From Acidocella sp. (GTDB taxonomy: Bacteria > Pseudomonadota > Alphaproteobacteria > Acetobacterales > Acetobacteraceae): DNA of 32,468 nt. The stretch is from contig NZ_JAQTZC010000018.1 in the NCBI RefSeq assembly GCF_028687955.1, positions 1-32,468 on the forward strand, in the 5' to 3' direction. The notes under the pieces were generated by a model. It did no database searches. It had not been told where the DNA came from and saw nothing but the letters and a program-made list of their open reading frames with translations. The stretch's first letter is position 1. Each line of letters begins with the position of its first letter. Shown one piece after another: positions 7,189 through 10,358 of the stretch. A program made the position numbers and the translations under genes.

Positions 7189-7758
7189 AAGCGCCTGCAG
7201 GGCCCCTGGCGGGAGGGTTAGGTCGGAAAATCCCGCGGGCGGGGCAAAATCCTGCGCTGGTTGCGGGGCGTAGGCGACCGACAGCGCGGTTACCTCGGCT
7301 GAACCATGGGCATCGCGCCCGGCGAAATGCAGCACCACGCCATCGGGCGTGATGCAGGCGGTGCCCGAGCCATGGGCGTTTAGCACCAGGTATTTCTGGC
7401 AGGCCATGCCGGCATAATGCCCTGAGCCCAGCGGGGTGAACTGGGCGCCGCCGGCGGTGGAGATTTCCTGTGTCAGGGCCGAAAAATCGGGCGCCTGCAC
7501 GATGGCATGCAAGGCGGGCACCACCACCTGCGCCTGGCCCGAGGGCAGGTTGGCCAGGATATAGATGCCCTGGGCGGGGTTTTCGACCCGCGCCAGCTCC
7601 TGCGCGGCATCGTAATTCAGCAGGTAGTTCTGTGCCGTGCGGCCGGGGGCATCCAGCTCGTAGGTGATGGCGACATCGCGTGTGGGCAGAAACACGGGCG
7701 TTGCCAGGGCAGGGCCTGCGGCCAGCAGCGCGGGGAGTACGAAGGGTAAAATTTTCAT
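7174..7758 (-). CDS. Exported protein of unknown function
   Basis: The 194-residue product starts with a signal peptide (MKILPFVLPALLAAGPALA), with probable cleavage after AxA near residue 19. The mature part looks like a soluble beta-rich periplasmic protein: PTRDVAITYELDAPG, then AQELARVEN, QGIYILANLPSGQAQVVVP, and two cysteines (about C120 and C133) that could pair. I do not recognise the family. A protein of lipid- or ligand-binding type is possible but not shown. Its ATG overlaps the aat stop (ATGA), so the two genes are co-transcribed. It overlaps the DUF167 gene tail to tail. Confidence 0.7.
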   Translation of the reverse strand: MKILPFVLPALLAAGPALATPVFLPTRDVAITYELDAPGRTAQNYLLNYDAAQELARVENPAQGIYILANLPSGQAQVVVPALHAIVQAPDFSALTQEISTAGGAQFTPLGSGHYAGMACQKYLVLNAHGSGTACITPDGVVLHFAGRDAHGSAEVTALSVAYAPQPAQDFAPPAGFSDLTLPPGALQALLQPQ

Positions 7759-8420
7759 GGCGATTCTTTTCTCATGGCGTCAATTTCGCGCAGCAATACG
7801 GCAGGATCAGGGCTGGCGCTGAAGCGCGCGGGAGCTTCCACCGCTTGCGCGAGCAAGGCTTGATAGGCGGTGCGCGTAATCTCGACGGCGCCGAAGCGGG
7901 CCAGATGGGTGGTGATGAACTGTGTATCCAACAGGGTGAAGCCGCCCAGACGCAGCCGCGCAAGCAGATGCACCAGCGCCATTTTGGACGCGTCCGTCGC
8001 GGTGGAGAACATGCTTTCGCCGAAAAAAGCGCCGCCCAGGCTGGCGCCGTACAGCCCGCCAACCAGCGCGCCGTTCTCCCAGGTCTCCACGCTATGGGCG
8101 AAGCCGAGGTGGAACAGCGCGATGAAGAGCCGTTCGATCTCCTGGTTGATCCAGGTCTCCGGCCGGTTCTCCCGCGCCGCGGCGCAGGCGGCGATGGTGC
8201 CGGGGAAGTCAACATCAGCCGTGACGGTGAATTTGCCACTGCGCAGGGTTTTCATCAGGCTGCGGGGCAGATGGAATTTATCCAGCGGCAGCACGCCGCG
8301 CATCTCGGGGTCGAGCCAGTGCAAAGTCTGGCTCTTGCGCGATTCCGCCATGGGGAACAGCCCCAGCCGGTAGGCGCGGAGCAGCAGGTCTGGGGTGAGG
8401 TTGAATGGCCGGGCGGACAT
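7755..8420 (-). CDS. aat: Leucyl/phenylalanyl-tRNA--protein transferase Aat
   Basis: The 221-residue enzyme adds Leu or Phe from aminoacyl-tRNA to N-terminal Arg or Lys of proteins, marking them for ClpS/ClpAP degradation (N-end rule). Family signatures are LLRAYRLGLFPMAES near the N-terminus, WLDPEMRGVLPLDKFH, HSVETWENGALVGGLYGASLGGAFFGESMFS, and LLDTQFITTHLARFGA. Length is normal for the alphaproteobacterial form. It sits on the minus strand opposite the neighbouring accBC run, and its stop overlaps the start of the exported protein gene. Confidence 0.96.
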   Translation of the reverse strand: MSARPFNLTPDLLLRAYRLGLFPMAESRKSQTLHWLDPEMRGVLPLDKFHLPRSLMKTLRSGKFTVTADVDFPGTIAACAAARENRPETWINQEIERLFIALFHLGFAHSVETWENGALVGGLYGASLGGAFFGESMFSTATDASKMALVHLLARLRLGGFTLLDTQFITTHLARFGAVEITRTAYQALLAQAVEAPARFSASPDPAVLLREIDAMRKESP

Positions 8421-8476: not shown

Positions 8477-8504
8477 AAAAAACCCTGGGCGTAAGGACCC
8501 AGGG
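8477..8504 (-). terminator. Rho-independent terminator (minus strand)
   Basis: Read on the minus strand, CCCTGGG-8 nt-CCCAGGG is followed directly by six T residues (A-run at 8477-8482 on plus). It lies between the microprotein gene (8636-8827) and aat, so it should stop transcripts of the microprotein gene and insulate aat. It leaves an approximately 130-nt 3' untranslated region. Confidence 0.75.
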
Positions 8505-8635: not shown

Positions 8636-8827
8636 TCAGCGTTCCGGGGAGGACATGGCCCAGGCATGGGCATGGACCAGCCCGTCGTCATAATCCTGAG
8701 CGGGCGCGGTGGCCTTACGTTCACGCGATTCGCGAGCCCAGCCGTGGGAATGCACCAGGCCGTCATCATAGTCATGGCCCTGCATGGTTTCGATGGAGGT
8801 TTTGGCGGTGATTGTCTGGGTCTGCAT
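8636..8827 (-). CDS. 63-residue protein with two DYDDGLVHxHxWA repeats
   Basis: The product has a polar N-terminus (MQTQTITAKTSIETMQGH) and then two copies of DYDDGLVH[S/A]H[G/A]WA, at residues 19-31 and 45-57, separated by a basic linker. It ends SSPER. It has no signal peptide, membrane segment or cysteine. The start is set by a clear CAGGAG ribosome-binding site 8 nt before the ATG. The two repeats differ at six codons silently and at only two residues, so the peptide sequence appears to be under selection and the gene is real. I do not recognise the family. The Asp/His pattern suggests metal binding, and small size plus repeats also fits a precursor peptide, but no maturation enzyme is seen nearby. 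It is divergent from the ScfR-like regulator gene. Confidence 0.75.
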   Translation of the reverse strand: MQTQTITAKTSIETMQGHDYDDGLVHSHGWARESRERKATAPAQDYDDGLVHAHAWAMSSPER

Positions 8828-8870
8828 GGCGGGTCTCCTGGGTAGGCTGTGAATGGGCGTAACCCAGTTA

Positions 8871-8968
8871 ATAATTTACAATTCACCGCGAAGCATAGCG
8901 AAAACTCGGCCTGGACTCTCGAAATAAGTGTTTAACTTTACTGTAAAATTTTGCTATATGTAAATTAT
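8871..8968. promoter_or_regulatory. Divergent promoter region with inverted TGTAAATTAT motifs
   Basis: The 10-mer TGTAAATTAT occurs at 8959-8968 reading towards the regulator gene, and in inverted orientation at 8871-8880 upstream of the microprotein gene. A near-copy, TGTAAAATTT, lies at 8942-8951. The region is AT-rich compared with its surroundings. The arrangement would suit an operator for the adjacent ScfR-like regulator acting on both genes; this is inference from position only. Confidence 0.45.
8932..8960 (+). promoter_or_regulatory. Possible sigma-70 promoter of the ScfR-like gene
   Basis: TTAACT at 8932-8937 and TATATG at 8955-8960 are spaced by 17 bp and resemble -35 and -10 boxes. 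A start point 6-7 nt downstream would fall at or next to the ATG at 8967. There is no Shine-Dalgarno sequence before that ATG, so the mRNA may be leaderless. Confidence 0.45.
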
Positions 8969-10358
8969 GTCAAAAACTGCCATTGGTAAAACCATTCGCC
9001 GCCTGCGCATGGAGCAGGGGTATTCCCAGCAAGGTTTGGCACAAAAATTGGGAATTTCAACGAGTTATCTTAATCTCGTTGAGCATGACCAGCGCAATGT
9101 CACCGCCTCGCTCTTGTTCAAGCTGACGGATATTCTGCACGTGGACCTTGCGGCGCTTTCCGGCGTGCAGGAGCGCGAGTTCGAAGTGGCGTTGCGCGAA
9201 GTGTTCGCCGACCCGCAACTGGCCATAGAGCCGGTGCCCGAGGCCGAGATTCAGGCGCTGGCGGCCGCGCCCAACGGCGCGCGGGCGATTCTGGCGCTGC
9301 ATCGCGCCCTGGCCGGGGCACGTGAGGAGTCCTCGGGCATCACCTTGCCGTCGGGGCGCAAGATCATGCTGCCCAATGAGGAGGTGCGGGACTTCTTCCA
9401 TGACCATGAGAACCATTTTCCGGCGCTGGAGGCTGCCGCCGAGGTTATCAACGAGACCCTGAACGCGCAGACCATCGGCAGCAGCCACGCGCTGGCCGAG
9501 CGGTTGCGCCAGGTGCATGGGCTGATTGTGCGGGTGCAGTCGCTCCCTGGCGCGCTGCGGGTGTTTGACGCCAAAGCCCGGCTGCTCACGCTCTCGGAGG
9601 ATCTGCCGCGCGAGAGCCGGGGCTTCCAGATGGCGTTCCAACTTGCCTTGCTGGAAGCGCGCGATGCGATCGAGCCGATCATCAAGGCCGCCAACCCCTC
9701 GTCGCGCGATGCCACGGAGCTGTTGCGCATCGGCCTACTCAATTACATCACCGGCGCGATCCTGATGCCCTATGACGCCTTTTTGGAGACAGCGCGGCAG
9801 CTGCGCTACGATGTTGACGCCATCGCGGCGCGTTTTGGCGTGAGCTACGAGCAGGCGTGCCATCGGCTCTCCACCTTGCAGCGCAATGGCGCGCGCGGCG
9901 TGCCGTTCTTCTTTTTGCGGGTGGACCCGGCGGGCAATGTCAGCAAGCGCTTCTCGGCCGCCGGTTTTCCCTTCATGCGCTTTGGCGGCACCTGCCCGCG
10001 CTGGATCGTCCATTCCGCCTTCGCCACGCCGGGGACCATCCGCGTGCAGGTGGCGCAGCTTTCAGCCACGGAGACATTTTTGTGCTTTGCCCGCGCCATC
10101 GCCGGTCGGCCCGCGCGCTGGGGCGAGCCGCCGCCGGTGCGCGTTGTGGCCATGGGCTGCGATGTCAGCCATGCCGGGGAGCTGGTTTATGGCGATGGGC
10201 TGGACCTGGCCACCGCGGCGGTGGGCATTGGCCTCTCCTGCCGGTTGTGCGAGCGCCAGGATTGCCGCTCGCGCGCGTTTCCGCCGCTTGCGCACCGGCT
10301 CAGCATCGACCCGCTGACCACCAGCGCCAGCCCTTACAGGTTCGAGGCAAAGACATAA
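8967..10358 (+). CDS. ScfR-type short-chain fatty acyl transcriptional regulator (XRE family)
   Basis: The 463-residue product begins with an XRE helix-turn-helix (about 5-62; RRLRMEQGYSQQGLAQKLGIS then TSYLNLVEHDQRN). The middle section corresponds to the ImmA/IrrE-like DUF955 region (about 160-310), and the C-terminal DUF2083-type domain has RFGGTCPRWIVH and a cysteine cluster GLSCRLCERQDCRSRAFP. This is the layout of the RamB/ScfR family, which in characterised members senses acyl-CoA-type metabolites and controls short-chain fatty-acid or glyoxylate metabolism. The canonical HExxH of DUF955 proteases is not visible, as is usual in this branch. It probably controls its own promoter and perhaps the divergent microprotein gene. 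Confidence 0.88.
   Translation: MSKTAIGKTIRRLRMEQGYSQQGLAQKLGISTSYLNLVEHDQRNVTASLLFKLTDILHVDLAALSGVQEREFEVALREVFADPQLAIEPVPEAEIQALAAAPNGARAILALHRALAGAREESSGITLPSGRKIMLPNEEVRDFFHDHENHFPALEAAAEVINETLNAQTIGSSHALAERLRQVHGLIVRVQSLPGALRVFDAKARLLTLSEDLPRESRGFQMAFQLALLEARDAIEPIIKAANPSSRDATELLRIGLLNYITGAILMPYDAFLETARQLRYDVDAIAARFGVSYEQACHRLSTLQRNGARGVPFFFLRVDPAGNVSKRFSAAGFPFMRFGGTCPRWIVHSAFATPGTIRVQVAQLSATETFLCFARAIAGRPARWGEPPPVRVVAMGCDVSHAGELVYGDGLDLATAAVGIGLSCRLCERQDCRSRAFPPLAHRLSIDPLTTSASPYRFEAKT

Follow-up and report, generated by a model that had tools for sequence, protein, structure and literature searches.

The DNA analysed, hereafter the window, is the whole 32,468-nt stretch of contig NZ_JAQTZC010000018.1 from Acidocella sp. 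(assembly GCF_028687955.1). A short open reading frame (ORF) on its minus strand is the subject of this analysis, and the features of the locus are as follows.

7755..8420, minus strand: aat (leucyl/phenylalanyl-tRNA-protein transferase), the downstream gene in most Acidocella loci, outside the system
8483..8504, minus strand: terminator-like hairpin 3' of the ORF, not above shuffle expectation
8636..8827, minus strand: ORF of 63 residues, stop included, ATG at 8827, MQTQTITAKTSIETMQGHDYDDGLVHSHGWARESRERKATAPAQDYDDGLVHAHAWAMSSPER; almost certainly a core-less relic of aceA, i.e. a tail-only protein
8657..8695, minus strand: repeat 2, residues 45-57, DYDDGLVHAHAWA, with the motif match at 8666-8689
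8735..8773, minus strand: repeat 1, residues 19-31, DYDDGLVHSHGWA, with DDGLVHSH at 8744-8767
8835..8840, minus strand: Shine-Dalgarno-like (SD-like) CAGGAG, 5' of the ORF
8867..8884, minus strand: aceA-promoter-like element GAATTGTAAATTATTAAC, with 4 mismatches to GCAATGTGAATTATTSAC, the element preceding aceA in relatives
8967..10358, plus strand: ScfR/RamB-like regulator, the divergent neighbour (Pfam ScfRs, 5.8e-61)

The ORF carries, as the initial annotation had described, two 13-mers of the form DYDDGLVHxHxWA that lie 26 residues apart, and six silent and two amino-acid-changing differences separate the codons of the two repeats, the numbers counted before. The proposed CAGGAG ribosome-binding site was also present. 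A minus-strand terminator had been proposed as well; a hairpin was indeed found at 8504-8483, but one such site is about what chance gives (0.8 expected in shuffles). Repeat 2 is followed by MSSPER and the stop codon, to be compared with the WAVSSP[DE]R that ends some tailed isocitrate lyases (see below) and other small proteins.

The ORF gave no Pfam or NCBIfam match above cut-off, in agreement with the earlier statement that no named family with this motif is known; the only matches, to Pfam COQ9_N and to an NCBIfam nickel/cobalt-transporter model, were far under cut-off. It is not itself an isocitrate lyase (ICL), as neither a match to the Pfam ICL family (PF00463) nor the KKCGH catalytic barrel was found, and the sole part of a tailed ICL that matches it is ICL residues 432-454. 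A search of the solved structures in the PDB with the small-protein profile found no homologue, the best hit (NDUS5, E 0.096) being a chance match. AlphaFold2 with an alignment of 21 sequences, some of which begin one codon past the ATG, yielded no structure for the small protein (pLDDT 57, pTM 0.12), which suggests that it may be disordered, an absent predicted structure not being proof of disorder. Among the papers covered by the text search, none contains DDGLVH, DDGLVHSH, GLVHSHGWA or GLVHSHSWA. Among the matches listed, nothing on a tail peptide was found for ICL tails in Acetobacteraceae or ScfR together with ICL, for glyoxylate-shunt small proteins, or for ICL in Acidocella, Acidiphilium or Roseomonas.

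The divergent gene at 8967..10358 also matched the NCBIfam RamB model with 1.3e-121, yet this is under the cut-off of that model. In relatives, the ScfR/RamB-like gene adjoins either aceA, which encodes ICL, or the small gene. Neither the connection to ICL nor that to this regulator gene was part of the initial annotation.

The refutation check proposed earlier, a search for missing homologues or for frameshifts, was run; homologues were found with the reading frame intact, and no frameshifted copies were seen in L002-L006. The dN/dS values of the window against five relatives (5 pairs) were 0.04-0.14, and those of the other ten pairs among the relatives 0.08-0.43, the value of 0.43 coming from L002/L003 with 5 differences only. 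Over the 26 motif codons, the window differs from L004 or L006 by 7-8 synonymous changes and no amino-acid change, and from L005 by two amino-acid changes. We concluded that the ORF is a real gene under selection, as the earlier reading had held, and that the purifying selection is strong.

Occurrence and gene contexts of the motif

A scan of one genome per species (84,980 bacterial and archaeal species) detected 77 loci with the motif. Those named to genus belong to Acidocella, Acidisphaera and Roseomonas-type genera, all of which we take to be Acetobacteraceae; the remainder are MAGs with broader labels. With the strict DNA pattern DD-G-[LF]-V-H-x-H, 153 of 397 sampled Acetobacteraceae genomes were positive, an upper figure because chance matches occur (at least one, G225, is among the 153), and the backward control pattern matched twice. 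The chance matches identified were L134 outside the family, and G225 (L330) and the third match of G318 (L338) inside it. The strict pattern also misses variants such as DEGLVH and DHGIDH. When 385 genomes from the whole class were searched, five of them Acetobacteraceae, the pattern occurred in the genome that contains the window and in a single unrelated frame; there was no true strict-pattern match in the 380 alphaproteobacterial genomes outside Acetobacteraceae. Among the genomes searched, the motif was thus found only in Acetobacteraceae. A relaxed pattern (GAYGAN...) detected it in 32 of the 38 genomes of the window's genus and in 22 of the 23 near-complete ones; unrelated-frame matches in G010 and G025 (L294, L302) were excluded from the 31 small proteins counted for this genus, and G002 gave a similar match, which may likewise be unrelated.

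In several loci of relatives the motif forms the last residues of an ICL of 450-480 aa. The tailed enzyme of L056, for example, matches Pfam ICL with 2.9e-94, and the ICL tail HDHDDGLVHSHTWAVSSPDR (L051) and the standalone protein end HDHDDGLVHSHSWAVSSPER (L015), each directly before the stop, are nearly identical over the last approximately 20 residues. The alignment of solved bacterial ICLs of canonical size stops at profile positions 431-440 of 461, which puts the motif past their end. It comes after the segment corresponding to the C-terminal lid of the M. tuberculosis enzyme, which the relevant passages of PMC5430663 place at residues 411-428. The motif residues D, G, H, H, W and A are invariant across 33 tailed ICLs, and 21 small proteins share an unvarying DDGLVHxH in their first copy. 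An AlphaFold2 model of a tailed ICL, made with 33 sequences chosen from those at hand, was poor and uninformative on docking. A derived tail variant, D[DH]GIDHAH[DE]WAR, stands on the canonical ICLs of L204, L212 and L217; Leu-Val is changed in it, and both His and the Trp are kept.

To compare the gene arrangements, ScfR loci were sorted into four classes, and removal of loci with identical ScfR left 121 distinct loci. Class F (tailed ICL) comprises 33 of them, class D (ICL without a tail, with a separate small gene behind it) 52, class N (ICL with neither tail nor small gene) 11, and class C (small gene, no canonical ICL) 25. A tail and a small gene together were seen in none of the 96 distinct loci with canonical ICL; for the tailed loci, at least 300 nt past the stop could be read in 29 of 33 and only 25-152 nt in the other four. 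The fused and free forms of the motif are therefore mutually exclusive at the ICL locus. The tail is dispensable, as the 11 class N loci among the 96 have no tail and no small gene behind the enzyme; a motif gene lies elsewhere in the genome in 3 of these 11 (G298, G080, G127). One locus counted as D, L219, has a tail severed by an in-frame stop: in L219/L145 (G125) a TAA cuts the ICL tail and a short downstream frame keeps the motif. A second motif in the tailed genome G063 does not belong to a small gene; it closes a further tailed ICL that lies at the edge of a contig (L332).

In the D loci, the median gap from the ICL stop to the ATG of the small ORF is 29 nt; of 51 such ORFs, 42 are in a different frame from aceA and 9 in the same frame, and 47 are preceded by an SD-like sequence. 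These data indicate that the small ORF behind aceA is a gene of its own; readthrough from aceA was rejected on the same frame, gap and SD-like data. Two motif copies are present in 37 of these 51 separate small genes. Many single-motif small proteins end with TPS[ST]A[YVF][HR]DD at the place where the second copy otherwise stands (L061, L062, L068, L074, L179-L181, L224, L225). The ScfR locus L020/L183 has an expanded form, in which one frame contains a repeated IPEALVKRAM segment and four copies of the motif, the last of them truncated where the stretch ends.

ScfR is present in 148 of the 153 pattern-positive genomes, including those without canonical ICL, and in 174 of the 177 genomes with canonical ICL. 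Some motif genes are found away from this setting. Unlinked small genes of the type MTYAAPxCDxYDDGLVHSHxW... occur in L133, L067, L039 and L325, of which L133 adjoins the PHB regulator gene phaR and L325 adjoins cytochrome bd genes. Others lie beside a ribose-phosphate pyrophosphokinase gene (L036), beside what is presumably a RadA-like gene (L324) and beside other genes (L329).

Core-less aceA loci and a second isocitrate lyase

Where canonical ICL is missing, the small gene occupies the position of aceA, divergent from ScfR. Canonical ICL is absent from all 38 genomes of the window's genus; the matches listed for it there are partial, 33-47% identical and in the frames of other lyases, and two genomes gave none. 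The small genes of such loci also keep other parts of aceA. Mismatches to the promoter element GCAATGTGAATTATTSAC averaged 4.65 in class C, 1.0 in D, 2.5 in F and 6.6 in N against 7.8 in shuffles; only the core-less loci count here, as the consensus was picked by eye from aceA loci and the score there is circular for that reason. The element of the window has mismatches at 4 of 18 positions against about 8 for shuffles. Many of the N-termini are alike as well, as seen when the ICL of L222 (MRSSTPLYAPDGMAGSGRDPDRFAG) is set against the small protein of L178 (MASTPEYAPDGMLIAGRVTERFVG), and the ICL of L214 (MRPFTAPVRAPDGMNTPAGDPERFAG) against the small protein of L171 (MRPSTAPTRSPEGMSAPASQDTRRFAG). 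The ICL N-motif (FSPDGxGG or similar) occurs in 18 of the 31 small proteins of the window's genus, in one as SHDG, and its [AST]P[DE]G part is degenerate in 3 more. It is gone from the protein of the window and its clade, in which the C-motif is doubled. Judging from the C-terminal tail, promoter element and position, and from the N-motif in many species of its genus, it is nearly certain that the 63-residue ORF descends from an aceA gene whose catalytic core was deleted.

The history of the core-less state was followed on an unrooted ScfR tree (43 rows chosen from 136, LG+C20 mixture). Six changes to or from this state were obtained, of which at least five are forced by the starred branches, with a bootstrap range of 6-6; a quick tree of all 136 rows including repeats gave six as well. 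The nearly identical core-less genes of G057 and G202 were taken as one event, and the event counted as unforced was that at L020, a long branch. Four of the core-less cases have a tailed ICL in the row or rows nearest to them (L175-L202, L055-L193/L194, L171-L214 and L178-L222). Counts on an unrooted tree do not separate gain from loss; loss was preferred because regaining in place, between the same ends, an ICL core that is 71-85% identical is far less likely. On the sequences compared, core-less aceA has formed several times within one bacterial family. Further core-less copies are those of L258 and L259, from genus g19 as is L175, with SPDG and the DEGLVH variant. The two genomes G057 and G202 have different genus codes and near-identical small genes at their ScfR loci (L171, L174); G057 also has a C-terminal piece of ICL elsewhere (L185), and one of the two assemblies may be mixed.

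A second type of ICL, about 530 aa long and 27-32% identical to the canonical one, was searched for in 80 chosen genomes that are not phylogenetically independent. This long ICL was detected in 15 of 19 motif-positive genomes that lack canonical ICL, against 1 of 19 that have canonical ICL and none of 18 in which ICL, ScfR and motif are all missing. It was also present in 18 of the 24 ScfR-only genomes searched (of 32), all 18 being motif-less. The motif-only genomes in which it was not found are G057, G302, G180 (66% complete) and G213 (89% complete). The small gene of three g4 genomes is the direct neighbour of the long ICL gene and is not at ScfR. The place next to ScfR that canonical ICL otherwise holds is taken by the long ICL in G086 and G164, two genomes with unlinked motif genes, and in G116, which has a similar gene.

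The C-motif was not found as a tail of the long ICL itself in any of 42 loci, at least two of which are cut before the C-terminus. The [AST]P[DE]G N-motif was found in 24 of these 42, compared with 46 of 47 D, 34 of 36 F and 5 of 6 N loci; the long-ICL loci considered for this shared start include L187, L188 and L270-L288, and also L262-L264. Within the window's genus, 13 genomes have the N-motif in the small protein only, 4 in the long ICL only, 3 in both and 8 in neither, the window's own species being of the last type. This distribution is suggestive of complementarity; it is not independent of phylogeny and was given no weight.

The ScfR-only genomes, 32 by the strict pattern, go against a required tail. 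When 12 of their ScfR loci were opened, two (L258, L259) proved to be the core-less loci with the variant motif mentioned above, two (L260, L261) hold an ICL cut by the contig end, L251 holds an N-terminal ICL remnant only, and seven (L250, L252-L257) hold nothing recognisable. G015 is a third ScfR-only genome with the variant motif (DEGLVH). For the motif-less long-ICL genomes of genus g99, no core-less gene was found at ScfR in L250, L252 and L251.

Possible function and alternative explanations

As a whole, the best explanation of these data, which we regard as moderately probable, combines the origin from a core-less aceA, displacement by the long ICL and a tail peptide that acts on ICL. 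A different, longer ICL would have taken over catalysis from canonical aceA, so that the old core became dispensable and the tails remained useful; the old gene would then have shrunk to its tails, next to ScfR and with part of the promoter element. We infer that the DDGLVHxHxWA peptide acts on ICL, the fused form in cis and the free form in trans, because the motif is interchangeable between the two states and an ICL remains as target in most core-less genomes. It may be a disordered regulatory tail, whose likeliest docking place would be close to the active-site lid at the C-terminus, at the junction of canonical chain and tail. There it might inhibit or activate the enzyme and so tune the glyoxylate shunt on acetate or short-chain acids, possibly under the control of ScfR.

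Compared with the canonical ICL family (PF00463, about 430-460 aa), the 63-residue protein shares the C-terminal tail, the promoter element and the gene position, and part of its relatives share the SPDG N-motif; it differs in missing the entire catalytic core. The proposed control of an ICL by its tail may be compared with ICL2 of M. tuberculosis, in which the C-terminal domain is the sensor. That extra domain is folded, and the ICL2 chain has 766-786 residues in solved entries. Binding of acyl-CoA, accompanied by a rearrangement of the structure, governs the activity of ICL2 (PMC6788997). The regulatory setting of the small gene fits that of RamB in Paracoccus denitrificans, where the ramB gene lies upstream of and divergent from the glyoxylate genes and its product is an activator on acetate (PMC10370305); the likeness lies in the divergent ScfR/RamB gene next to aceA or the small gene. 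The difference is that malate synthase and icl genes follow in Paracoccus, and the passages of PMC10370305 that describe them do not mention a tail peptide.

A disordered enzyme regulator similar to CP12 may serve as a working analogy. To our knowledge there is no sequence relation between CP12 and the 63-residue protein, which by its sequence is not a member of the CP12 family. CP12 is disordered and has 78 residues, and its sequence also forms the approximately 30-residue tail of an enzyme that it regulates, GapB (GAPDH), as stated in the passages of PMC3838966 on CP12; the chloroplast GapB extension thus resembles our case in that a regulator-type sequence occurs on its own as well as at the end of an enzyme. 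Most CP12s have four conserved cysteines (same passages of PMC3838966), whereas the 63-residue protein has no cysteine and hence no cysteine pair. Moreover, GapB is thought to stem from a fusion, whereas the free form in Acidocella, and likewise in other lineages, would come from deletion of an enzyme core.

Several other explanations were weighed. The peptide might bind ScfR/RamB as a feedback arm that reports aceA expression, the ICL tail letting the enzyme titrate its own activator. ScfR is indeed a constant companion of the motif, also without canonical ICL, and the divergently oriented small gene and ScfR gene share one intergenic region. However, canonical ICL is equally strict with ScfR, so that the link between motif and ScfR may be inherited; the ScfR-only genomes lack the motif by the strict pattern (three having the DEGLVH variant and two a contig-cut ICL); and the small gene of g4 accompanies the long ICL, away from ScfR. 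We consider this explanation unlikely. Similarly unlikely is that the motif serves as a docking tag for a third protein (a glyoxylate-shunt or acetyl-CoA enzyme, a shell or a scaffold), recruiting ICL or bridging assemblies. The two copies in the window and in most small genes behind aceA would fit a bridge, and unlinked copies are found near phaR, but a free peptide cannot recruit an untagged ICL, yet the free and fused forms replace each other.

The suggestion in the initial annotation of a metal-binding microprotein would make the invariant Asp and His residues ligands of a divalent ion, with Mg or Mn being handed to ICL, for example, or metals being buffered in an acidic habitat. The invariance of the motif in tailed ICLs and small proteins agrees with this, but chelation leaves the invariant Gly, Leu and Ala unexplained, the motif is strictly tied to ICL and ScfR loci, and it is present in Roseomonas-type genera as well as in Acidocella, which live in different habitats. 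We judge this quite improbable. That the peptide is a RiPP precursor with two core units, as also suggested before, or a leader peptide is extremely improbable: it is short, repeated and rich in Trp and His, but the identical 13-mer is a permanent enzyme tail in relatives, and no maturation enzyme (radical SAM, YcaO or DUF692-type) was found in the 28 window ORFs scanned with Pfam. A decaying pseudogene without function can be given just as little credit; the small gene is a remnant by origin and several ScfR-only relatives have none at all, but the low dN/dS and nearly unchanged motif residues show that it is not decaying, and it is retained in nearly all near-complete genomes of the genus and repeatedly across separate lineages. 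What stands of the earlier reading is a real, selected and unrecognised peptide; the precursor does not.

Returning to a tail peptide acting on ICL, we tentatively propose, as a possibility that we rate below even chances, that recurrent 'coring' of aceA, on takeover of catalysis by a non-orthologous ICL, released from its disordered ends a free peptide regulating the newcomer ICL in trans, in about five separate lineages, with the tails kept by selection. If this is true, coring of an enzyme gene would be a route to new regulatory microproteins, and selection would have preserved the tails rather than the active site. Small ORFs whose origin is not known are frequent, and few have been explained; the present one is traceable to a central metabolic enzyme. 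Behind the label 'hypothetical protein' there may be what is left, for regulation, of an enzyme that has been displaced. Natural replicates of core loss exist within one family, and the same system can be compared directly in its tailed, split and core-less states. ICL is a key enzyme for growth on acetate, and the proposal predicts that the glyoxylate shunt in Acetobacteraceae would be under trans-acting control.
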